This document shows, in pieces, positions 4,938 through 64,000 of a DNA stretch of 64,000 nt (within the stretch, counting starts at the first letter, position 1; each line of letters begins with the position of its first letter). Position numbers and translations under genes: made by a program. Where the stretch lies: positions 1,214,001 to 1,278,000 of the forward strand of contig NZ_JAFP01000001.1 in the NCBI RefSeq assembly GCF_000526195.1, given 5' to 3'. The notes below the pieces were generated by a model. That model was given only the letters and a program-made list of their open reading frames with translations. It had not been told where the DNA came from and made no database searches. This DNA is from Hippea sp. KM1. GTDB lineage: Bacteria > Campylobacterota_A > Desulfurellia > Desulfurellales > Hippeaceae.

Positions 4938-5384
4938 TTATTTAAAACGGGCCAATTCTCTTTCTGCTTCCCTGGCCAAATCCCTCTCTTTTATATCCTT
5001 CCTTTTATCATATAGCTTTTTCCCCTTGGCCAGGGCAAGCTCCATCTTTATCCTTCCATTTTTGGAGTAAACCCTCAACGGTATGAGTGTAAGCCCCTTC
5101 TCCTTGACCTTTCCTATAAGCTTTCTGATCTGATATTTATGAAGAAGGAGCTTCTTTTTCCTGTAAGGATCGTGATTGGTGTGCTTTGAGGCAAACTTAT
5201 ACGGACTTATGTGAAAATTGTTGACCCACACCTCGCCGTTTTTGATCTCTGCATAGCTATCCTTTAGGTTGGCAGAGCCCATTCTTATGGATTTAACCTC
5301 ACTACCCTTAAGCTCAAGGCCCGCCTCATAAGTCTCTAAGATCTCATAATCATGACGGGCCTTGCGATTTACTATCTCTCTCAT
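4938..5384 (-). CDS. smpB: SsrA-binding protein SmpB
   Basis: SmpB binds tmRNA and delivers it to stalled ribosomes for trans-translation. The 148-residue product has the diagnostic order: N-terminal [40 protein letters not shown], and a basic C-terminal tail ([15 protein letters not shown]) that reads the empty mRNA channel. Its start codon overlaps the pilQ stop as ATGA, so it is translated as the last gene of the pilMNOPQ transcript. No tmRNA gene is seen nearby. A 64-base gap with no obvious terminator separates it from carB. Confidence 0.97.
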
Positions 5385-7546
5385 TCCTTAATTATATGAG
5401 GCGTTACGAATATATAGAGTTCTCTTTGTGGGTTATATATCCTTTTTGTCTTAAACAACCAACCCAACAGAGGTATTCTCATTAAACCGGGTACGCCTCC
5501 AACCGTTTTTTCTGTCGTGCTCTGCATTAATCCGCCTATTACTACTGTTTGGCCATCCTTGAGTATAACGGTAGACTCAACCGAGTTGGTGTTAATAGGG
5601 GGTTCGCCTCCAACGCTATGAGCATAATCGGGTGAATTTTTCGTTATTGTAAGCTTCAGTATAACCTGATTATTTCTTGTGATATGCGGTGTAACATCCA
5701 AAGACAGGGTGGCATCCTTAAAGCTAGTGCTCGTTGCACCACTCGAACCAGCGCTCTCCTGATACGGTATCTGCTGACCACTGCTAATTATGGCATGCTC
5801 ATTATCCAAAGTAATAACCTTAGGTGTTGACAGAACCTTGCTATAGCCCTCAAGCTCACCCATAGTTAATTTCAAATCTAAATTATAATTTGCAATAACA
5901 TTTCCAACAGCCAAACTAACCGTTGATGTTGGAGCATCACTTAAACTGGCAGGAAGATTAACAACAAAATTATCATTAGAGAAGGATTCTGTTGGGGGTA
6001 ATCCATTGCTAACATCAACAGGAGAGGATGTCCCTCCTATGCCTATAAATGTTTTAGAGTGATTGATATCTTGATTAAAATAATTACCTCCCCACTGAAT
6101 ACCAAGCTGTCTTTCATAAGATTTACTTATCTCCACAATCCTGGCATCTATTTCAACCGCCCTCTTCTTTTGATCTATTATTTTTACGATTTTCTCTATC
6201 TTGGCTATATTCTCCTTTGTATCATGACAAATCAGGGCGTTGTTTTTAACATCTGAAACAATAAACCCGCCATTGTTTGCATTCTTGGCATTTCCTGTAT
6301 TGTAAAGCAGCTTGTTAATTATATTAATAGCATAATCTGGGGTTATGTAATTCAGATTAATCACCTTTGTTATGGCACTTTTAATCCTCTCAAGCCTCTC
6401 CTTATCTTTTATAGCCTTAATCTCCTCCTGCTTCTGCTTCTGATACCTTGAGGCGGTGGTTATGACAACCACATTACCCTTGCGATCTGCAACAAGCCCT
6501 TCCTGTTGCAGGATCAAATCCATCGCCTGATTTAGTGGAACATCCTTTAGTTTCATAGTAAGCGTGCCTTTTACATCATCGCCCACTATGATGTTAAGAC
6601 CACTTATCTGGGCAAAAACCCTGAATATGTCTTTAAGCTGGGCATCCCTTACATCAAAGGAGATGAGTTTATCCTCCGGGAATATCTTATTTGAACCCTC
6701 ATCCACCAGGCTGCTTGAAGATTTAGAACCCGTTTTTGGTTTGTCAGGCACAGCAGATGCCAATTTCTCAGTTCCTTTAAGTGGGAAGATTATGTATATA
6801 TGCCTCTTATCGGCATAGAATTTTTTAAGTTGAGCCCCTTTTTTCAGAGAGATTAAACACCTAACCATATCACCCTTCTGCAGGGTAATAATGGAGTTTA
6901 CATTGTCGGAGAGGGATTTAAGATCCTGTGATTTCAAAGCAGCAGGTGAGGCTTTTGCATTCTTTACATCCACATAGAGCAGATGGTCGCCCTCTTTTAA
7001 ATAAAACAACGGCTTGTTTTCTGTCAGTAAAACCACCATCTCGTAAGTCTTAAACCTTCTGTAAGATATACGCTCAATCTTATTAAGCTTTACAGCTTTA
7101 TTCTGTTTTATCTGTCTGGCCTCATTTTTGGCAACTTTAGCCCTATAGTTTAAAATTAGAGATTTATCGTCTTTTTTAACCCTACATGCGGGCTTCGTAT
7201 TTTTTGGAAACTCCACACATATTCTTAAGAATTTTCCCTGCTTTTTAACCTCTTTTTCCTTCTTGTCGTTGTGGTATGCAATCCTAACCTTTAGATCGCC
7301 CTCTTTGTAAACCCTAACTCCGGCATTCTTAAGGCAAACAGGGCACTGGCTCACCTTTAGTATATCAACAACACATCTTGGAGGGTTATCCAGGTAAAAC
7401 AGCTTATAATCGACATCACCATTGAAATCCACAACGCTCGCATCACCCTTAACACTCACGCTCTTAATGTTTCCGGCTTTAGCCATAAAAGGCAGATATA
7501 TGCCCACCATCATCATCACAAAAAAGAGTTTCCACACAAATCTCAT
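5381..7546 (-). CDS. pilQ: Type IV pilus secretin PilQ
   Basis: PilQ forms the outer-membrane channel through which the type IV pilus passes. The 721-residue protein has a signal peptide (hydrophobic residues 5-22, cleavage probably after AKA), and two AMIN-like regions (about 26-125 and 155-255). A Ser/Lys-rich linker is followed by an STN domain (about 295-362), a NolW/N1 domain (about 390-460) and the C-terminal secretin domain ending near the [14 protein letters not shown] signature. The first AMIN region carries five cysteines (58, 68, 71, 110, 121), including a CPVC pair, unusual for this domain. The start has an AAGGAGAGGGG site. It lies downstream of pilP and overlaps smpB by 4 bases. 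Confidence 0.95.
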
Positions 7547-16201: not shown

Positions 16202-16790
16202 CCTTTAAGCTGTCCTTCTTAAGAAGGTATTTCTGAAAGATGGTTGCAGCCTTCTTGGGCTGCATCTTTGAGATTATCGCACCCGCCTGTCGTGGCCGCA
16301 TAAACACCAAGATCTGTGCGGCCACATCCTCATTCATTTGGGAGAGCTCCTCTGCGGCCGCCTGGGGTTTGGCAGCCGAGTATATCTGAGCAAGCTTCTT
16401 TATCTTCTCATCCGCAATCTGTTTCTGCAAACCCTCAAGCTCCTTCTGCTTCTTGCTAAGATAATCCTCAACCTGCTTTTTTATGTTTGCAAAATAGTCA
16501 TCGGCCTCTTTTTTCTTCTTCTTGGCATATTCGTCAGCTTCCTTCTTCGTGTTCTTGGCATACTGCTCTATCTCCTTCTTCTTCTGTTCTATCTCCTTTT
16601 CCTGTTTATCCAGTTGAGCCTTTAGCTTTTCAAGCTTTGCTATCTTCTTATCAATAAGCTGCTGTAAGCTCTTTAGCTCATTGATCTTTTCAACTATGCT
16701 GCTTAGCTGCTGGGTATCCTTTCCATAGGAAGCAGAAGAAAAAAGCAGTATGCTAATTATTAGAAATCCTGCTAACAGCGACCTTAACAT
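16188..16790 (-). CDS. motE: MotE-like flagellar/periplasmic chaperone with MgtE-N-like domain
   Basis: This 200-residue protein has an N-terminal hydrophobic segment (about residues 5-22) followed by a very long Lys/Glu-rich coiled coil (about 30-140). A C-terminal MgtE_N/FliG-like helical domain (LSQMNEDVAAQILVFMRPRQAGAIISKMQPKKAATIFQ) completes it. This architecture is that of MotE, which supports insertion of the stator partner MotC/MotB in epsilon-type and related flagella. The ATG at 16790 has a GAGG site; an in-frame ATG at 16802 is possible. The start lies 38 bases inside fliJ. It is the last gene of the flagellar run. The symbol is inferred from architecture and position. Confidence 0.75.
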   Translation of the reverse strand: MLRSLLAGFLIISILLFSSASYGKDTQQLSSIVEKINELKSLQQLIDKKIAKLEKLKAQLDKQEKEIEQKKKEIEQYAKNTKKEADEYAKKKKKEADDYFANIKKQVEDYLSKKQKELEGLQKQIADEKIKKLAQIYSAAKPQAAAEELSQMNEDVAAQILVFMRPRQAGAIISKMQPKKAATIFQKYLLKKDSLKVNKQ

Positions 16791-17208
16791 TGGCAACCTC
16801 ATCTAAAAACTTAACCTCTTCCCTAAGGCTTGATACCCTGTATTCCTCCCTGGCCTTCTCCTTTAGCTTCTCAAGCTTCTTCTTCTCCTTAAGCAGATTC
16901 TCAGCCTCCTTAACATACTCCTGTTTCATTTTTTCCAATGCCTCTATCTGCTGCCTTGTTAAATCAATGGCATTAAGCGTTTTTTCTATATTTTCGTTTA
17001 AAAACATAACCATATTCCTGTCTATCTCATCAGCCTCCAATACCTCAAATAGCCTCTTCTTTCTGCCTTCGTTTTCAAGAAGAAGCCTTGATAGCTTCTC
17101 TTTCTTTGAGTTTATCTCTTTCTCAATAAGTGCTATCTGAACCCTCTTTTCATCCAACAATCTGCTTTTGATCTTCAGAAGCTTCTCAAACTTAAACGCA
17201 AACATCAA
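16753..17208 (-). CDS. fliJ: Flagellar export chaperone FliJ
   Basis: This 151-residue protein is almost entirely coiled coil, opening FAFKFEKLLKIKSRLLDEKR as in FliJ. FliJ acts as the central stalk-like subunit of the FliI ATPase ring at the export gate. The start overlaps the fliI stop by 4 bases, and the position after fliI is the standard one. Sequence conservation is low in this family, so order and coiled-coil character carry most of the call. Confidence 0.9.
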   Translation of the reverse strand: MMFAFKFEKLLKIKSRLLDEKRVQIALIEKEINSKKEKLSRLLLENEGRKKRLFEVLEADEIDRNMVMFLNENIEKTLNAIDLTRQQIEALEKMKQEYVKEAENLLKEKKKLEKLKEKAREEYRVSSLREEVKFLDEVANVKVAVSRISNN

Positions 17209-18509
17209 TCAAATATCCTTCTCATCAGGTTCAAGGTATCCTCAAAGGAATAACTCTCATCAACCCCTTGAGCCAAAAACCCCTCAATCCTGTCTATATA
17301 CTTTATAGCCTCGTCTATATCCTTATTGCTCCCCTTCACATAAGCACCGATATTGATTAAATCCTCTGCATCGGCGTATACGGATAGAACCCTTCTTATT
17401 CTCAATGCCAACTCCTTATGCTGTTGTGAGGCTATGGAGTTCATCAGTCTGGATATACTCTTTAGGACATCTATAGCCGGATACCTTCCCCTTTCTGCTA
17501 TCTTCCTGGATAGAACAATATGGCCATCGAGTATCGAACGTGACGCATCGGCTATAGGCTCCATAAGGTCATCACCATCGACCAATACCGTATAGATGGC
17601 TGTGATAGATCCCGTATTGAAATTACCGGCCCTTTCCATAAGACGGGGCAGAAGCGTAAATACACTGGGCGTATAACCCTTTGTGGTGGGTGGCTCGCCA
17701 ACGGCCAGCCCAATCTCTCTCTGCGCCATGGCAAATCTGGTCACCGAATCCATCATAAGCATAACATCGGCGCCCTTATCCTTAAAAAACTCCGCAATGG
17801 ATGTGGCCACAAATGCACCCTCCCTCCTTAGAAGCGGAGCCTCATCGCTTGTTGCCACCACAACCACGCTCTTTTTAAGCCCCTCCTCCTTCAAATCCCT
17901 CTCTATAAACTCACGCACCTCTCTGCCACGCTCACCAATTAAGGCAATAACATTCACATCGGCAGAGCTATTCCTTGCTATCATACCAAGCAGCGTGCTT
18001 TTACCCACACCACTGCCTGCGAATATACCAACCCTCTGACCCTTTCCCAGACTAAGAAGCCCATCAATGGCCTTTACACCCACAGATAGAGGCTGATCTA
18101 TAATCTTTCTTTCAAGCGGAGGCACGGGTTTGGGATAAACAGGATAATACTCATCAACCCGAATGGGTCCTTTGGAATCAATAGGCCTGCCCAAGGCGTT
18201 GACAACCCTGCCCAATAGCCCATCACTCACAGGGACACTCAAACCCCTTCCTTCTGACTTAACCAGGCTGTGCGATTTTATACCATCAAGAACGCCAAGC
18301 GGCATCAATACAACGCCGTCCTCATCAAAACCCACAACCTCTGAGTCGATCCAGCCCTCATCCGTTTCTATCTTGCACACATCGCCTATCTTCACATTCT
18401 TAGGCCCTGTTGATTTTATTGTAATGCCTGCAACCTTTTTTATCCTGCCGTATGTGACTATTAGATTGGAACTGTCTATCGCCTTCTTTAGCTTCAGTAT
18501 ATTACTCAT
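17205..18509 (-). CDS. fliI: Flagellum-specific ATPase FliI
   Basis: FliI is the F1-beta-like ATPase that energises flagellar type III export. The 434-residue product has an N-terminal barrel domain, the Walker A loop FAGSGVGKSTLLG (about residues 163-175), the region GERGREVREFIE, Walker B DVMLMMDSVTRFA and the family signature ending PSVFTLLPRLMERAG. Its start lies 8 bases inside fliH and its stop overlaps fliJ. Nothing is missing compared with standard FliI. Confidence 0.97.
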   Translation of the reverse strand: MSNILKLKKAIDSSNLIVTYGRIKKVAGITIKSTGPKNVKIGDVCKIETDEGWIDSEVVGFDEDGVVLMPLGVLDGIKSHSLVKSEGRGLSVPVSDGLLGRVVNALGRPIDSKGPIRVDEYYPVYPKPVPPLERKIIDQPLSVGVKAIDGLLSLGKGQRVGIFAGSGVGKSTLLGMIARNSSADVNVIALIGERGREVREFIERDLKEEGLKKSVVVVATSDEAPLLRREGAFVATSIAEFFKDKGADVMLMMDSVTRFAMAQREIGLAVGEPPTTKGYTPSVFTLLPRLMERAGNFNTGSITAIYTVLVDGDDLMEPIADASRSILDGHIVLSRKIAERGRYPAIDVLKSISRLMNSIASQQHKELALRIRRVLSVYADAEDLINIGAYVKGSNKDIDEAIKYIDRIEGFLAQGVDESYSFEDTLNLMRRIFD

Positions 18510-57622: not shown

Positions 57623-58210
57623 ATGGAATTAGCAAAGAAGGAAAAGAAGAGATACACATACAGCGATTATATTGGTTGGCCCGATGATGAGAGGTGGGAG
57701 ATCATCGACGGTGTTGCTTACAACATGAGCCCTGCGCCGAAGGTGAAGCATCAAAGAATAAGCTGGAACATAGGAGAAGCCTTTGTTAGGGTAAAAGAGA
57801 AACTCAAAGGGTGTATGCCGTTTAGTGCACCGACAGATGTTGTTTTGGATGAGTTCAATGTTGTTCAGCCTGACATATTCGTTGTTTGTGATAAAAACAA
57901 AATTACAGAAGACAACATCAAAGGCGTGCCGGATTTGGTTATTGAGATCACATCAAGATCAACGGAACTAAAGGATAAAAGGGAGAAGCTGTTTTTGTAT
58001 GAAAGGTTCGGCGTTAAAGAATATATCATTGTTTTTCCCGAGCGTGAGTATGTTGAGCGCTATGTGCTTCAAAATGGAAGATACATGGCTCCTGAGATTT
58101 TTAACTGGGATGAGGCGCTGAGACTAAAGACATTTGATATTGAGATAAATCTGTGGGAGATATTCGAAAAGGAATTGCCCAATGAAGAAGAAAATAAAGA
58201 TGGATCGTGA
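57623..58210 (+). CDS. Uma2-family (DUF820) restriction-endonuclease-like protein, copy 1
   Basis: This 195-residue cytoplasmic protein has the Uma2/DUF820 PD-(D/E)XK fold. WEIIDGVAYNMSPAPKVKHQ starts the core. The probable catalytic residues lie in VVQPDIFVVCD (PD) and PDLVIEITSRSTELKDKREK (E-x-T..K). LYERFGVKEYIIVFPE follows. The family is widespread in cyanobacteria and others and its role is not established; nuclease activity is assumed from the fold. A closely similar copy lies at 58601, so the block is duplicated. It has its own promoter and an AGGAAG site. Confidence 0.88.
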   Translation: MELAKKEKKRYTYSDYIGWPDDERWEIIDGVAYNMSPAPKVKHQRISWNIGEAFVRVKEKLKGCMPFSAPTDVVLDEFNVVQPDIFVVCDKNKITEDNIKGVPDLVIEITSRSTELKDKREKLFLYERFGVKEYIIVFPEREYVERYVLQNGRYMAPEIFNWDEALRLKTFDIEINLWEIFEKELPNEEENKDGS

Positions 58211-58589
58211 TAAAAAGGAAGAGATAATAGGCAGGATAAAAGATTATTTGGACAAAAGAAAAGAGGTGCTGTTTGCGTATATTTTTGGGTCTTTTGTGAG
58301 GAGTGATGAATTTTCCGATATTGATATAGCCTTGTATGTTGATGGTGATTTCTCGCTGAGGTATGAATTTGAGATAGAGGACGACCTTGAGGCTATGTTA
58401 AAAATACCCGTTGATGTTAGGATCATTAACAAAGCCCCCGTGTCGTTTTCATACGGTGTACTAAAAGACGGGCTATTGATCAAAGACAATGACATCAGAA
58501 GCGACTTTCAGGTGATGAAATTTAAGGAATACATGGATTATGTGCATTTAAGGGATACATACATAAGGGATAGGGATGTAGCAAGATAG
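58182..58589 (+). CDS. MNT-type minimal nucleotidyltransferase (MntA-like), without HEPN partner
   Basis: This 135-residue protein has the minimal nucleotidyltransferase motif GSFVRSDEFSDIDIAL (G-S followed by D-x-D, about residues 37-52) and a third Asp in PVDVRI. MntA proteins are usually antitoxins that AMPylate a HEPN RNase toxin (HepT), but no HEPN gene is adjacent here. Instead the gene sits between two Uma2 copies. It overlaps the first Uma2 gene by 29 bases (ATG 58182) or 11 bases (ATG 58200); the second start fits the family better. Confidence 0.88.
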   Translation: MKKKIKMDRDKKEEIIGRIKDYLDKRKEVLFAYIFGSFVRSDEFSDIDIALYVDGDFSLRYEFEIEDDLEAMLKIPVDVRIINKAPVSFSYGVLKDGLLIKDNDIRSDFQVMKFKEYMDYVHLRDTYIRDRDVAR

Positions 58590-58600
58590 GAGGTAATATA

Positions 58601-59206
58601 ATGGCTATAACGGCCAAGAGAATGGATAGAAAATATACATACGAGGACTATAAAAACTGGCCCGATGACGAGAGGTGGGAGATTATCGACGGTGTGGCAT
58701 ATAACATGAGCCCCGCACCCAAAGTGAAGCATCAAAAAATCTCAGGTAATTTGTACTTTGAATTAAAAAAGGCGCTTAGGGATAAAAAATCTCATTGCGA
58801 TCTATTCAGTGCACCGACGGATGTTGTGCTGGATGAGACCAGTGTAGTCCAACCAGATATATTTGTTGTTTGTGATAAAAACAAGATCACAGAAGACAAC
58901 ATCAAAGGCGCACCTGACTTGATTATTGAGATTGTCTCGCCCTCAACGGCATACAAGGATACGAAGATAAAAAAGGATCTGTATGAAAAATTCGGTGTCA
59001 AAGAGTATATCATTGTTTTTCCTGATCTCTTCCTTGTTGAGCGGTATGTTTTAAAGGATGGATCTTACGGCGTGCCTGAACGGTTCAACTGGGATGAGAC
59101 ATTAAAGCTTAATACTTTTGACATTGAGATAAATCTGTGGGAAGTGTTTGAGAGGGAACTGCCGAAAGAGGAAAAATATGAAGATGCAAAAAAGTTAGAG
59201 TATTAA
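58601..59206 (+). CDS. Uma2-family (DUF820) restriction-endonuclease-like protein, copy 2
   Basis: This 201-residue paralogue of the gene at 57623 shares the segments GWPDDERWEIIDGVAYNMSP-like, KITEDNIKG and EINLWEVFE. The active-site pattern is again VVQPDIFVVCD followed by PDLIIEIVSPSTAYKDTKIK. The DNA is also alike along much of the length. It has an excellent AGGAGG site, so it is translated on its own. The similarity points to a local duplication or repeated capture. The large MshQ-like gene begins one base after its stop. Confidence 0.88.
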   Translation: MAITAKRMDRKYTYEDYKNWPDDERWEIIDGVAYNMSPAPKVKHQKISGNLYFELKKALRDKKSHCDLFSAPTDVVLDETSVVQPDIFVVCDKNKITEDNIKGAPDLIIEIVSPSTAYKDTKIKKDLYEKFGVKEYIIVFPDLFLVERYVLKDGSYGVPERFNWDETLKLNTFDIEINLWEVFERELPKEEKYEDAKKLEY

Positions 59207-59207
59207 C

Positions 59208-62200
59208 ATGAGAAAGGGTTTGTTCTTTTTGGTTTTTTTTATCTTGGTTTTTGGGTTTTTTTCAACTATTCAAGCAAAAACTTTGGTGGTTGATAATAGT
59301 TATTTGAGCTATTTACTTGGTTATTATTGTGAGAATGGCGACGAATATTATCATTCTATAAAAAGGGCTTTGGAAAACGCTGATAATGGAGATGTGATTA
59401 AAATTTGTGCTGGAAGTTACAATGAAAGCAACTTAGAAATAAACAAAAATATTACAATTGAAGGTTTGGGAACCTCTCCAGATGATGTGAAAGTTGAATA
59501 TTGGAGTAAAAGTCCTATTTTTTATACAAGCGGATGGAGAAACGGGGTAGTTTTGGAGAATTTTTCTATAAGTCAAGAGAGAAATAATAGAACCGCTTTA
59601 TCTATTGGTGAAGGTACGGGATTTTTGTTGAAAAATTTAAAAATAGTGTCAAAAGGCTACGGTTTAGTAGTAAATTCTCAAATACAAAATAGTACTTTAA
59701 CAAATGTGTATATTAATAGTTCGCAAATTGCTTTGGATGTTGAAAATTCTTACAATGGACTGTATTTAAGTAATTCCACTTTCATTTCAAAAAGAAATGA
59801 TGCCGTTAATATTAATAATATTACAGGAGATTTTAGTGTAAAAGGTTGTGAATTTGAGGCAAAAAGAGGAGATGGAATCTGGATTAAAAATTCTAATTAT
59901 ATCGACATTGAAGACTCTTATATTCATAATACAAAATATGAGGGATTTTATGTGGAAAAAAATCACGAGAAAATCGATATGGTGGGAAATTTAATAGAGA
60001 ACCCCGGAAATTACGGTGTTTACATAAATGATAGTTCTAATCCTGGAAAAATTAAAAACAATATTATAAAGGGTGCATCGGTGGAAGGGCTTTACTTGTT
60101 ATCTCAGAAAAAGTGGAGAGGATATCAAGTAATTAATAACTGTTTTGAGAATGGAAATGGTAAAAACGTTTTTAATAGAGATAGAAATGCTGATTTCAAT
60201 GAAAATTACTATAATGATTGGAGTGGAAGTGGCGCATATGAAATTCCAGATGTTCCTGTTTATGACTATCACCCTTTAAGTTCGTGTCCTTTCAGCAGTA
60301 TTCCAAAACCTATAATTGACTATCATATGGATGAATGTAAATGGGACAATGATAGCTCCACATACGAAATTAAGAATTATGGATCGTTGGAGAGCGATTA
60401 CAATGCCACAGCACTTAACGGTGCAAACACCATTGCCAATGGGGAAATTTGCAGGGGTGGTGATATTGTTAGTTCAAATACAGAAGATAAAGCGTTAAGG
60501 CTTAAAAGTGATTATCTTTTACCTACTAAATATACTTTAAATGTGTGGATTAAATTTCCTTTAAATACTGAAGATCATAAAATTTTTACATATGGATTTT
60601 TTTGGAATAGAACAAATGTAAAATATTTTAATATTGCAGATAGAAAGGGTGGTAATAGAGATTTTATTTATTTTACACAAAATCTTAATAATAATTCGTG
60701 GACTTTAGATGTAGATGATGATAATGAAGGAGATAGTTATAATTTTAATCCTCAAAAATTCAGCGGTTGGCATATGCTTACATTTGTGATCAACAATAGA
60801 GGAACCAAATTTTATTTAGATGGAAAAGAGGAATATACTTTCTCTACACATCCAAATACCGGTTATTTAGGACTTCTATTTAATAGTGATTATGGCGGAA
60901 ATACTGATGAACCAAATGGTCAATCAATTGGGACTGATGTTGATGAATTTGAACTTTACAACACAGCACTTACTGCAAATCAAATTCGGCAAATTTACAA
61001 CAACGAAAATGCGGGTAAAAATTACAATGGCACCACAAGAACCTGCCCCGTCTGCATGGCCATTGACCACTACGAAATCTGGCATTATCCCACAAATTTG
61101 ACATGCCAGCCTGCACCTTTGGAAATTAAAGCTTGCGCAAATGATAATTGTTCTCGGTTATACACAGACAACGTTACACTTACACTTGATTATGATAGTG
61201 AAAGTAAAGAAATAAGCTTTTCTGGCGGTGAGTATAACACAACAATCAGTTACACTCAAGCAGGAACAATAACTCTATCAACATCTAATGAAAGCCCCAC
61301 TCCCTCAAGTCCCACGATTTGTAACATATTCAATTCAAGTTCTACATCATGCGATATAACCTTCAAAGATACAGGTTTCGTTTTCAAGACTCCGACAAAC
61401 TCTGATTATGTGGTAAACAATATTCTATCCTGCTCTGTTAAACCCATTGAGATAGATGCGGTTCAAAAGGACAATGTGACAAACAAATGCACGAATATGT
61501 CTGTATTTAATGGTGATGTAACGCTAAATATGTATGGAAGGTATGTTACTCCTTCAGCAAATCCTTATGGCACAAAGGTAATGATCAATGACGCATCTGT
61601 TGAAACTGTTGATTATAATTCTACAGCAACAGGGACGAGCTTAACACTCCATTTTGACAACGGCACTGCACAATTTAATTTATCTTACCCTGATGCTGGA
61701 AGTATTGAAGTAGGAGCAATTTATGACAAAAATGGACTTAAAGTTAGTGGTGAATCCAATCCGTTTGTTGTAAAACCCGAGAGGTTTGCTTTTGGTAACT
61801 TAAGCAGTCCAGCAGATAATTCCACCTGCTCCACAGACTCTTGCTGGGCAAACATTGGTGTGTTTAAGAAAGCTGGGGAAATATTTAATTTTGATGTAAA
61901 AGCTGTATGTGATAACGGCACTGTCACACCGAATTATTATCCGATAAATCAAAATGGCGACAACTCAACCGTTAACCTGGCTGCTTTTATGGTTGCACCT
62001 GACAACGGAACGGACGTTACAAACAAGCTAAGTAAAACGACAATTGACGCAAGCGAGTTTAATGGAGGTGTGGCTAAAGTTAAAGAGAGCTTCGGTGAGA
62101 TTGGGGTGATAGATTTAAAAGCTGTAGACAACAACTATTTAGGTGCGGGTTCTATCGGTGTTGATAAAAAGGTTGGGCGCTTTATACCACATCACTTTGT

Positions 62201-63035
62201 TATAGACAATATTACAAATGGCACGCTCAAAGAGCAATGTAACACATTCAACTATATTGGTCAGACTACAACTTATGATGCCAAACCATTTTTTTATGTT
62301 ATAGCTGAGAACAAGGACAATCAAACTACTTTAAACTACAAAGGTTATTTCTTCAAACTAAAAGCCTCAGACATTGGAATAACAAAACCCCAGCATGACG
62401 ACAACAAAACGCAGGTCAGCATAGAGATAGAACGGGCAACACCTGATTTTAAAAAAGGAAACGGTGTCGGAACATACACCTTCGGAAATGATAATATTAC
62501 CTATGTAAAAGATAACAATTCAAAAATTGCTCCGTTTTCACCGGAATTTCACTTTAGTATCGACAATGTAACTGATTCGGATAATGTCACATGTCCAGAC
62601 TGTCCAGACAATATTACTGTTACTGGCACTTTGATGAAATATGGAAGATTAAAAATCTTCAACAACTATGGTCCAGGAAATGAAAAACTAATATTGAAGG
62701 TTCAAACTCAATATTGGAATGGTGCCCAATGGGAGTTGAACGGGGATGATGTATGTACGGTCTTGGATAGCAGCGATTTTGTGCTTGATAATTTTACAGG
62801 TAATCTTTCAGATAATGACACTTCTGTTAGCTCTGTAAATGAGATAGATGCAGGAGAAGGTGGCCTGACTCTCTCACCACCCGGTTTAGACAAATACGGC
62901 AGTATAGATGTGGATCTGAGCAACAGCGCCATTTTTTACAACTGGCTTTACGACAACGACACAAAAGGCACGGCATTCTTTGGTATATACCGCGGTAGGG
63001 ATAGGGTTATCGAATGGAAAGAGGTGGCACCATGA
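59208..63035 (+). CDS. MshQ-like surface protein with beta-helix, LamG and DUF6701 regions
   Basis: This 1275-residue protein is exported by a signal peptide (MRKGLFFLVFFILVFGFFSTIQA). The first third has repeats of short hydrophobic strands typical of a right-handed beta-helix (NosD/pectate-lyase type, about 30-370). A LamG-like region follows (about 395-600, with KYTLNVWIKFPLNTEDHK and FSGWHMLTFVINNRG). The rest resembles DUF6701 of MSHA protein MshQ, with the diagnostic IDHYEIWHYPTNLTCQPAPLEIKACANDNCS-type cysteine pattern and a C-terminus GTAFFGIYRGRDRVIEWKE. It is notably rich in Asn and Asp. It is followed by a PilB/MshE-type ATPase, supporting a pilus or surface role. The AT-rich N-terminal half differs from its neighbours, suggesting acquired segments. 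The gene begins one base after Uma2 copy 2, without its own clear RBS. Confidence 0.75.
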   Translation: MRKGLFFLVFFILVFGFFSTIQAKTLVVDNSYLSYLLGYYCENGDEYYHSIKRALENADNGDVIKICAGSYNESNLEINKNITIEGLGTSPDDVKVEYWSKSPIFYTSGWRNGVVLENFSISQERNNRTALSIGEGTGFLLKNLKIVSKGYGLVVNSQIQNSTLTNVYINSSQIALDVENSYNGLYLSNSTFISKRNDAVNINNITGDFSVKGCEFEAKRGDGIWIKNSNYIDIEDSYIHNTKYEGFYVEKNHEKIDMVGNLIENPGNYGVYINDSSNPGKIKNNIIKGASVEGLYLLSQKKWRGYQVINNCFENGNGKNVFNRDRNADFNENYYNDWSGSGAYEIPDVPVYDYHPLSSCPFSSIPKPIIDYHMDECKWDNDSSTYEIKNYGSLESDYNATALNGANTIANGEICRGGDIVSSNTEDKALRLKSDYLLPTKYTLNVWIKFPLNTEDHKIFTYGFFWNRTNVKYFNIADRKGGNRDFIYFTQNLNNNSWTLDVDDDNEGDSYNFNPQKFSGWHMLTFVINNRGTKFYLDGKEEYTFSTHPNTGYLGLLFNSDYGGNTDEPNGQSIGTDVDEFELYNTALTANQIRQIYNNENAGKNYNGTTRTCPVCMAIDHYEIWHYPTNLTCQPAPLEIKACANDNCSRLYTDNVTLTLDYDSESKEISFSGGEYNTTISYTQAGTITLSTSNESPTPSSPTICNIFNSSSTSCDITFKDTGFVFKTPTNSDYVVNNILSCSVKPIEIDAVQKDNVTNKCTNMSVFNGDVTLNMYGRYVTPSANPYGTKVMINDASVETVDYNSTATGTSLTLHFDNGTAQFNLSYPDAGSIEVGAIYDKNGLKVSGESNPFVVKPERFAFGNLSSPADNSTCSTDSCWANIGVFKKAGEIFNFDVKAVCDNGTVTPNYYPINQNGDNSTVNLAAFMVAPDNGTDVTNKLSKTTIDASEFNGGVAKVKESFGEIGVIDLKAVDNNYLGAGSIGVDKKVGRFIPHHFVIDNITNGTLKEQCNTFNYIGQTTTYDAKPFFYVIAENKDNQTTLNYKGYFFKLKASDIGITKPQHDDNKTQVSIEIERATPDFKKGNGVGTYTFGNDNITYVKDNNSKIAPFSPEFHFSIDNVTDSDNVTCPDCPDNITVTGTLMKYGRLKIFNNYGPGNEKLILKVQTQYWNGAQWELNGDDVCTVLDSSDFVLDNFTGNLSDNDTSVSSVNEIDAGEGGLTLSPPGLDKYGSIDVDLSNSAIFYNWLYDNDTKGTAFFGIYRGRDRVIEWKEVAP

Positions 63036-63054
63036 GTAAATTTGAGGTGTGTTT

Positions 63055-64000
63055 ATGGCAAAATTAAAAAAGATTAGGATTGGGGATTTATTAAAAGAAA
63101 AGGGCTATATAACAGAAGCCCAGCTAAAGGTTGCTCTAAATGAGGCCAAGAACAAGGGCAAAAAGCTCGGTGAGATGCTTATTGAACTTGGTTATGTTGA
63201 TGAGCAGACGATAACCGATGTTTTGGCTGAGCAGCTAGGAATAGAAAAAACCACACTAAAGGATATAAGGTTTGAAAAACCGCTTAAGGAAGCGTTGCCC
63301 GAGAAGCTCGCCAGAAGGTTTAAGGTTGTTCCTGTGGACTTTAATGATAAAGAGATAACCATTGCCACAAATGACCCGACGGACATCTTTGCCCTGGATG
63401 AAATCAGCAGGATAACGCACAAAGAGGTTATACCAACTGTAATGTCGAAGGAAGAGCTCTTCAGTGCCCTTGAGAAGATTTACGGAACTGAGGATAGGCT
63501 TTACAAAATCGTGGATGATGTCGAAAAGAAGATAACCTCAAGTGGAAGTGATGAGGATGTTTTAAGGAGTTTGGCAGAGGATGCCTCGGTCGTTAATCTT
63601 GTTGATGGAATTATCGCCAAGGCCTTGGCCGAGAAGGCAAGCGATATACACATTGAACCGGATGAGGATATCTTAAGGGTTAGATACAGAATTGATGGAA
63701 TACTGCATGAGGTTCTAAGCCTTAGTAAGGTGCTTCACCCTGCCATTGTTTCAAGGATCAAGATAATGGCCAATATGAATATAGCCGAAAAGAGAATTCC
63801 TCAGGATGGCAGATTTAAGATAAAAAGGAATTTTAAGGATGTGGATTTCAGGGTTTCCACTCTGCCAACAAATTACGGTGAAAAGGTGGTTTTGAGGATT
63901 TTAGATAGGGAAAAAGCTTTACTTGATTTAAGAAATATCGGCATGGATGATTACAATTTGAGTGTTTATGAGGAGATGATATCGAGGCCTTACGGGATTA
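63055..64000 (+). CDS. PilB/GspE/MshE-type assembly ATPase (partial)
   Basis: The gene is cut by the right edge; 315 residues are present. The N-terminal MshEN/T2SSE_N domain (about residues 1-150, with IGDLLKEKGYITEAQLKVAL) precedes the ATPase region with AEKASDIHIEPDEDILRVRYRIDG and NIAEKRIPQDGRFKI. The sequence ends just before the Walker A loop. It would power pilus extension or type II secretion. It has a GAGGTG site, 19 bases after the MshQ-like gene, so the two are co-transcribed. A short frame of 11 codons (63032-63067) overlaps both and is ignored. Confidence 0.93.
   Translation, partial: MAKLKKIRIGDLLKEKGYITEAQLKVALNEAKNKGKKLGEMLIELGYVDEQTITDVLAEQLGIEKTTLKDIRFEKPLKEALPEKLARRFKVVPVDFNDKEITIATNDPTDIFALDEISRITHKEVIPTVMSKEELFSALEKIYGTEDRLYKIVDDVEKKITSSGSDEDVLRSLAEDASVVNLVDGIIAKALAEKASDIHIEPDEDILRVRYRIDGILHEVLSLSKVLHPAIVSRIKIMANMNIAEKRIPQDGRFKIKRNFKDVDFRVSTLPTNYGEKVVLRILDREKALLDLRNIGMDDYNLSVYEEMISRPYGI

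Follow-up and report, generated by a model that had tools for sequence, protein, structure and literature searches.

In a 64,000-nucleotide stretch of Hippea sp. KM1 (contig NZ_JAFP01000001.1, positions 1,214,001 to 1,278,000; hereafter the window), the gene at 59,208 to 63,035 probably encodes an MshQ-type protein, not itself a pilin, that sits as adhesin at the tip of an MSHA-like type IV pilus and helps to prime its assembly; the protein is predicted to be N-glycosylated, and its heads are exchanged between relatives. This reading is carried by a full-length DUF6701 domain, an MSHA-like operon running past the window's edge, a dense D-N-X-S/T motif in tip protein and pilins, and the mosaic make-up of the N-terminal part.

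Anatomy and occurrence of the DUF6701 protein

The open reading frame (ORF) runs from its ATG to its stop with zero internal stops (Table 1), and the membership of its product in DUF6701 (PF20419) is certain: profile positions 2-577 of 577 are matched at E 3.8e-113, with 380 bits against a cut-off of 27. The MshQ-like C-terminal part proposed in the sequence-only reading of this DNA is thereby borne out, as are the beta-helix (E 1e-20) and LamG (E 1.3e-9) modules of the N-terminal part; the epithet "giant" fell away, since relatives are often longer (about 850 to 1794 amino acids for DUF6701 ORFs of other loci with both ends within the contig). The single-contig genome (1,742,311 bp) holds one DUF6701 gene. 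Pfam gave no PilC/PilY1 match up to E 1, the C-terminal region being DUF6701, and no solved structure was similar by sequence within that same limit. Literature searches on DUF6701, and on mshQ together with LamG, found no paper, and among the 20 titles listed for Hippea and pili none deals with Hippea pili.

Table 1. Coordinates of the tip gene, its modules and two pilus genes (window positions unless stated)
Feature	Position	Strand	Basis
DUF6701 (MshQ-like) tip protein gene	59208..63035	+	ORF, 1275 amino acids; Pfam
Signal-peptide-like start MRKGLFFLVFFILVFGFFSTIQA	59208..59276	+	read by eye
AT-rich exchangeable head module, residues 1-365, GC ~0.31	59208..60302	+	module identities, GC, sliding identity
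Right-handed beta-helix (Beta_helix), residues 178-333	59739..60206	+	Pfam; model pLDDT ~70-85 there
Conserved linker, residues 371-418, GC 0.424, 81-94% amino acid identity in six genomes	60318..60461	+	
AT-rich LamG core, allele A, about residues 419-570	60462..60917	+	module identities, GC, sliding identity
Laminin_G_3 domain, residues 428-593	60489..60986	+	Pfam
DUF6701 domain, residues 702-1273: modelled Ig-like rod, 24 N-X-S/T including 17 D-N-X-S/T	61311..63026	+	Pfam, model, motif counts
Conserved C-terminal tail, residues 1258-1275, candidate docking strand	62979..63032	+	conservation ranking, model
Start of MshE-like ATPase gene, cut by window edge; whole gene L008:6050-7735	63049..63999	+	
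PilQ-type secretin, sole secretin found in genome; possible shared pilus outlet	5381..7546	-	

The DUF6701 part, modelled with 44 rows at a mean pLDDT of 87, is all-beta and resembles multi-domain immunoglobulin (Ig)-like chains, and it models as a rod of Ig-like domains; the best Z of 8.9 is middling and therefore supports the fold only. Foldseek/VIA matches to ICAM-5, FdeC and invasin were likewise set aside as clues to function, being generic Ig-like chains. When 14-residue segments were ranked by conservation over 40 rows, the 44 without the close Hippeaceae, those starting at model residues 587 and 586 came 9th and 10th of 590, and model block 591-600 has a pLDDT of 49, the tail being unfolded in the model. 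The top-ranked motif, GRF-I/V-P, was in the retrieval pattern and hence favoured; the tail was not. This highly conserved, unmodelled tail is a candidate docking strand. The N-terminal half was modelled at a mean pLDDT of 49.8, its beta-helix part alone being usable.

DUF6701 was found in seven of the 99 genomes searched around that of the window, all in one family. Among the 19 genomes of the order, these seven carry an MshE at least 74% identical to the window's (several being contig fragments) and the other 12 hold MshE paralogues only, at most 52% identical (4 of the 12 are under 90% complete); since the MshE orthologue occurs in exactly the DUF6701 carriers, the operon appears to be gained or lost as a unit. 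A scan of genome contigs gave 330 relatives, 80 of which were kept. All 65 proteins scanned for domains (37 + 28, the window's included) contain DUF6701 and 37 of them Laminin_G_3 (36 of 64 without the window's), other heads being PA14, H_lectin and Pentaxin. Beta_helix occurs in three, the window's and two betaproteobacterial proteins (L071, L081) with the entire beta-helix, LamG and DUF6701 architecture, so uniqueness of this combination is not supported. Outside Desulfurellales, an msh homologue lies near DUF6701 in 54 of 75 loci, several of the remainder being short contigs. Viral carriers yielded 66 pattern matches and zero relatives, plasmid carriers one record only, a 4.9-Mb Aeromonas replicon; the 4.9-Mb record of Aeromonas caviae KAM479 is labelled plasmid and looks like a chromosome, and its mshQ (L015:13027-19563) is interrupted by a transposase-like ORF (16293-17453).

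In the order of Calditerrivibrio, taken here as Deferribacterota, 8 of 45 genomes carry DUF6701, and in the tree of the conserved C-terminal parts (bases) Hippeaceae and Deferribacterota form one clade (100/99.5). The acquisition suggested by the sequence-only reading is thus upheld as module exchange between relatives; the DUF6701 lineage common to the two groups would fit transfer between phyla, with no direction shown.

D-N-X-S/T motifs in tip protein and pilins

Of the Asn/Asp richness first noticed, the Asn part stood (11.3% against 2.4-6.6% in 19 other window proteins); Asp, at 7.5%, lies inside their range of 3.5-8.0%. In the base of the window's protein N-X-S/T occurs 24 times, where shuffles give 9.2 (z 5.6); the count is 24-29 in five other Hippeaceae proteins and 18 (z 4.2) in the most distant homologue, G011. 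Over the seven proteins, Asp precedes the sequon Asn in 111 of 173 cases; at the 239 other Asn, the six commonest preceding residues do not include it; 17 of the 18 D-N pairs in the window protein's base are D-N-X-S/T. As GAYAAY is found 24 times in frame in the tip gene, against 0 and 1 in the two alternative frames, and the codons vary, selection acts on the protein. The Campylobacter-type acidic residue at -2 (D/E-X-N-X-S/T) is close to expectation in the base (2 vs 1.1).

Among 406 ORFs of at least 120 amino acids (window, operon locus L008 and a 400-kb sample), the tip protein ranks first in D-N-X-S/T (20) and the operon's major pilin second (4 in 140 amino acids), most of the others having 0-1. 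In all ORFs except the tip protein, pilins included, D stands before 47 of 677 sequon Asn, and 367 other ORFs outside the operon contain 27 D-N-X-S/T where 32.7 are expected. Over four operons, the observed/expected counts are 19/0.48 for pilin A, 4/0.10 for the second pilin, 6/0.23 for C, 7/0.52 for D, 11/0.45 for O and 5/0.12 for P, and 0 for each of the cytoplasmic or inner-membrane proteins E, G, M and N against 0.2-0.7 expected. In pilins the sites move between species and the motif is retained; sequon Asn of the tip protein are conserved at 0.79 vs 0.65 for other Asn, and toward G011 at 0.33 vs 0.36.

The six Deferribacterota bases scored hold 6-12 D-N-X-S/T (0.7-1.3 expected), and each of the four major pilins that those stretches yielded has 3-4 (about 0.1 expected); a seventh protein has 10 over 1070 amino acids, counted without an expectation, and the eighth, a fragment, was left unscored. 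MshM-type proteins there run counter to the pattern, with 3 motifs in L169 and 1 each in two others. The 74 other DUF6701 bases (45 vs 31.4) and 144 prepilin-like ORFs of those loci (11 vs 9.5) lie nearer to expectation. Among DUF6701 carriers, the enrichment of tip protein and pilins is restricted to Hippeaceae and Deferribacterota; because their bases form one clade, it may have a single origin.

The window's genome encodes a resident STT3 of 669 amino acids (L132:7085-9094) with the motif SWWDYG, over the Pfam cut-offs; it scores 82 against the NCBIfam PglB cut-off of 1300 and is therefore called PglB-like, not PglB proper. A sequon excess (24 vs 9.2) and an STT3 with WWDYG are hence found in the same genome. 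STT3 is present in 12 of 12 Desulfurellales genomes searched and in three of four from the family of Calditerrivibrio, all but G101; none of the 49 genomes that hold the other DUF6701 loci has it above cut-off. In print, Desulfovibrio PglBs used an RDNAT site and the acceptor rules of relaxed PglB-type enzymes are described as unknown (PMC4894442), and PMC6025236 cites a Deferribacter desulfuricans PglB as active. Fibre and tip are accordingly predicted, from sequence, to be N-glycosylated, and probably are. The likeness to PglB-type N-glycosylation of Campylobacter, Desulfovibrio and Deferribacter would lie in exported proteins that carry N-X-S/T and in an STT3/PglB-like enzyme of one subunit; unlike there, the acidic residue in Hippea is at -1, not -2, and the motifs are concentrated in one pilus system.

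The excess could instead be a structural or thermal adaptation, such as a turn motif or metal site, without any glycosylation signal, an explanation that deserves real weight though we find it rather doubtful. Carriers are partly thermophiles (H. maritima: PMC3156395), and coil holds 17 of 23 sequon Asn and 25 of 35 other Asn, so that their placement is not different; the confinement to filament subunits and tip, with none in E, G, M and N, the requirement for S/T at +2 in the D-N pairs and the shifting sites in unrelated folds argue against it.

The MSHA-like operon and the role of the tip protein

Past the window's edge, on the strand of the tip gene, L008 carries genes for the MshE-like ATPase, an AAA-ATPase_like protein, an MNT/HEPN-like pair, the major pilin, an MshG/GspF-like protein, five more pilin-like proteins, an ExeA/MshM-type ATPase, a TPR protein, PilM-, PilN- and PilO-like proteins and a T2SSB-like protein. 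The names MNT, HEPN and PilO are presumptive, given from resemblance seen by eye. In phmmer comparisons with ORFs of 11 other loci carrying MSHA-type genes, pilins A, third, fourth, O and P correspond to those standing at the MshA, C, D, O and P positions, and for the second pilin Calditerrivibrio alone gave a match. E values are 2e-27 to 3e-20 for the major pilin (tested with phmmer, not with the hidden Markov models of PMC6668835), 8e-93 for the MshG-like protein against the Aeromonas MshG-position protein (GspF-like as well), 4e-50 at best for the operon ATPase against the Aeromonas MshM-position protein, and down to 7e-154 for the MshE-like ATPase, whose cyclic di-GMP motif (NF053729) is over cut-off. 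The TPR, PilM-, PilN- and PilO-like proteins have zero matches in the 11 loci; the TPR protein, a candidate for mshN (TadD-like), stands after mshM.

As given in PMC6668835, the MSH model has mshA, E, G, L and M as mandatory genes, at least three of them sufficing; the operon contains an mshA-type pilin, mshG and mshM. The MSHA-type genes sought beyond the edge (MshE- and MshG-like, major pilin, MshC/D/O/P-like pilins, MshM-like ATPase) were thus found, and an MSHA-like operon beside the tip gene is well supported by these comparisons. MSHA beyond Gammaproteobacteria is not new, since the same source already describes MSH systems from Epsilonproteobacteria and Chrysiogenetes. Read by eye, Glu occupies mature position 5 in every operon pilin but the MshP-like one (cleaved before SLIFI); a tip pilin lacking Glu5 is the PilX/GspK pattern (PMC7541494).

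A pilus-tip or surface adhesin role, as first suggested, is plausible and in line with the literature, where V. cholerae without mshQ shows less surface MSHA and MshQ is termed a putative adhesin (PMC7096442), and where V. fischeri mshQ is variable and its swapping affected squid colonisation (PMC4094467); for the window's protein, tip adhesion is what we infer. That the protein serves chiefly to prime assembly, with a head that has no binding role and drifts freely, seems unlikely to us. The lowered surface MSHA of V. cholerae, whose retraction is independent of mshQ (PMC7096442), and the conservation of base but not head agree with it; the heads, however, belong to kinds of folded domain that are known to bind (LamG, beta-helix, PA14, H_lectin), and they change by replacement of whole alleles, not by decay.

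Several findings weigh against a glycosylated MSHA-like tip protein. The ATPase falls outside the proteobacterial MshE clade, although a joint-clade tree is not rejected (p 0.37). No mshL is present, the genome's only secretin being PilQ-type (MshL model 117.8 bits vs 250.2), which is why the system is named MSHA-like. Desulfurellales that lack the operon have STT3 too, and the search missed it in the motif-rich genome G101, one of the 49 above. In 48 exported-looking ORFs outside the operon, chosen by a crude rule, D-N-X-S/T number 9 vs 4.3 expected, a small excess, and N-X-S/T 101 vs 92.8, no excess; a general N-glycosylation system is therefore not evident, and a general N-glycoproteome is not supported.

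The operon might also be a type II secretion-like machine with the tip protein as secreted substrate or pilus-independent surface protein, which we hold improbable: GspF- and T2SSB-like matches, GspG/GspH-like pilin matches below cut-off and the missing MshL would suit it, and are outweighed by MshM-, MshO- and MshP-type matches to MSHA loci, a major pilin resembling MshA-position pilins, and the company that DUF6701 keeps with MSHA genes across Proteobacteria.

Two extension ATPases occur in the genome, a PilB-like one at 613 kb and the MshE-like one beside the tip gene; with what seems to be a single secretin, one outer-membrane channel may serve two pili. A Deferribacterales operon ends with its own small secretin (L166:17712-18935, 408 amino acids), scoring as PilQ rather than MshL, and Hippea has none there. 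Two Uma2-family genes and a nucleotidyltransferase (Polbeta-type) gene directly precede the tip gene (57623-59206), and a Uma2 gene about 60% identical directly precedes DUF6701 in two Deferribacterales too. The AAA-ATPase_like gene and MNT/HEPN-like pair between mshE and major pilin (L008:7752-9551) are absent from H. maritima.

Module exchange and its meaning

Seven DUF6701 proteins were aligned, those of the window's genome (G000) and H. maritima (G007) among them; three (G003, G014, G011) are cut by contig ends, G011 leaving the base only. Heads are 72% identical between G000 and G007 and, over 99 residues, 79% between either and G014; G005 and G004 share another head type (74%), LamG-like with a lipobox-like start, and every remaining pair stands at 14-35%. 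In every pair among the six, the linker keeps 81-94% identity. LamG core allele A (G000/G005, 73.5%) and allele B (G003/G004/G007/G014, 65-82%) are 31-37% identical to each other, and the six bases 66-93%. The combinations are beta-helix with A (G000) or B (G007, G014), LamG head with A (G005) or B (G004), and a divergent beta-helix with B (G003), so that both head types are found with both LamG alleles. In approximately unbiased (AU) tests, uncorrected and comparing the best tree of each data set, the base's tree is rejected by the LamG data (p 2.6e-90) and the LamG tree by the base data (p 1.2e-7). Sliding identity falls near residues 365, 415 and 570. In Aeromonas, heads and bases are 79% and 59% identical in L068/L093, and 31% and 80% in L067/L100. 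Because module histories are incongruent, mosaicism is shown, and the domain shuffling first suspected holds.

The gene is uneven in composition, as the sequence-only reading claimed, so that neither of the grounds for refutation named there, a missing DUF6701 match or uniform composition, applies; its AT-rich "first half" consists of two AT-rich blocks. The N-module has a GC content of 0.309 and the LamG part one of 0.283, whereas the 48-residue linker that separates them reaches 0.424, DUF6701 0.389 and the whole window 0.433. Between the two AT-rich, exchangeable modules thus lies a conserved linker that is richer in GC. In the six genomes GC ranges are 0.27-0.32 for heads, 0.28-0.32 for LamG cores, 0.38-0.43 for the linker and 0.39-0.41 for the base (G011, 0.43). 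A head/base GC contrast is not seen in Colwellia, Methylophaga and Thiobacillus-like carriers and is mixed in Aeromonas. No silent head cassettes were seen elsewhere in G000, residues 1-631 matching the gene itself only, and a literature search on shuffled type IV pilus adhesins found no paper. A contig-end stretch, L023 (G003:C180), is 46% identical to residues 1-153 and is perhaps the missing start of the G003 gene. The G005 and G004 proteins (L011, L013) begin with a lipobox-like LTGC in place of a plain signal peptide; the export signal type switches along with the head.

Chimeric metagenome assembly is a very improbable source of the mosaic, for although five of the seven carriers (G003, G004, G005, G011, G014) match named contigs of metagenome-assembled genomes and contig ends cut three of the seven genes, the two single-contig genomes (window's and H. 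maritima) are 72% alike in head and base with LamG alleles 31% identical, the longest exact match in linker 1 between two of the six is 44 bases, and head/base incongruence recurs in Aeromonas.

The protein resembles MshQ of the MSHA pilus (Vibrio, Shewanella, Aeromonas) in its C-terminal DUF6701, variable head and place in an MSHA-type cluster, and MshQ too differs in length and sequence between strains (PMC4094467, PMC7439477); unlike MshQ, the Hippea gene precedes mshE at the cluster start, mshL is absent, the head is beta-helix plus LamG, and D-N-X-S/T is dense. PilY1/PilC of type IVa pili is alike in outline, with a signal peptide, a poorly conserved N-terminus and a well-conserved C-terminal domain that contacts minor pilins (PMC7541494); the protein is no member, lacking a PilC/PilY1 domain, and its conserved part models as Ig-like domains where that of PilY1 is a beta-propeller. 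The betaproteobacterial L071 and L081 share the entire architecture but come from GC-rich genomes, with bases lacking D-N-X-S/T enrichment (pooled count).

In the mechanism we propose, the signal peptide would export the tip protein, and the conserved tail would dock on the MshP-like tip minor pilin, the only operon pilin without Glu5, and so help to prime pilus assembly. The Ig-like rod would serve as the stalk, and the beta-helix and LamG would face outwards and bind surfaces or glycans. Heads would be swapped between relatives by recombination in conserved linker and base, altering binding while assembly stays, and the dense D-N-X-S/T of body and pilins would be acceptor sites of the resident PglB-like oligosaccharyltransferase. 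More widely, and held tentatively at somewhat below even chance, Desulfurellia and Deferribacterota may have one pilus system saturated with an otherwise background D-N-X-S/T, heavily N-glycosylated by a PglB-like enzyme under an acidic -1 rule, with a tip adhesin that swaps heads cassette-like between species.

Overall, DUF6701, of unknown function in Pfam, gains a testable anatomy of variable lectin-like head, modelled Ig-like rod and candidate docking tail. Head exchange between species is a route by which a pilus tip protein diversifies, and the prediction follows that a bacterial pilus is N-glycosylated under an acceptor rule with an acidic residue at -1, in a setting where one relative is cited with an active PglB (PMC6025236).

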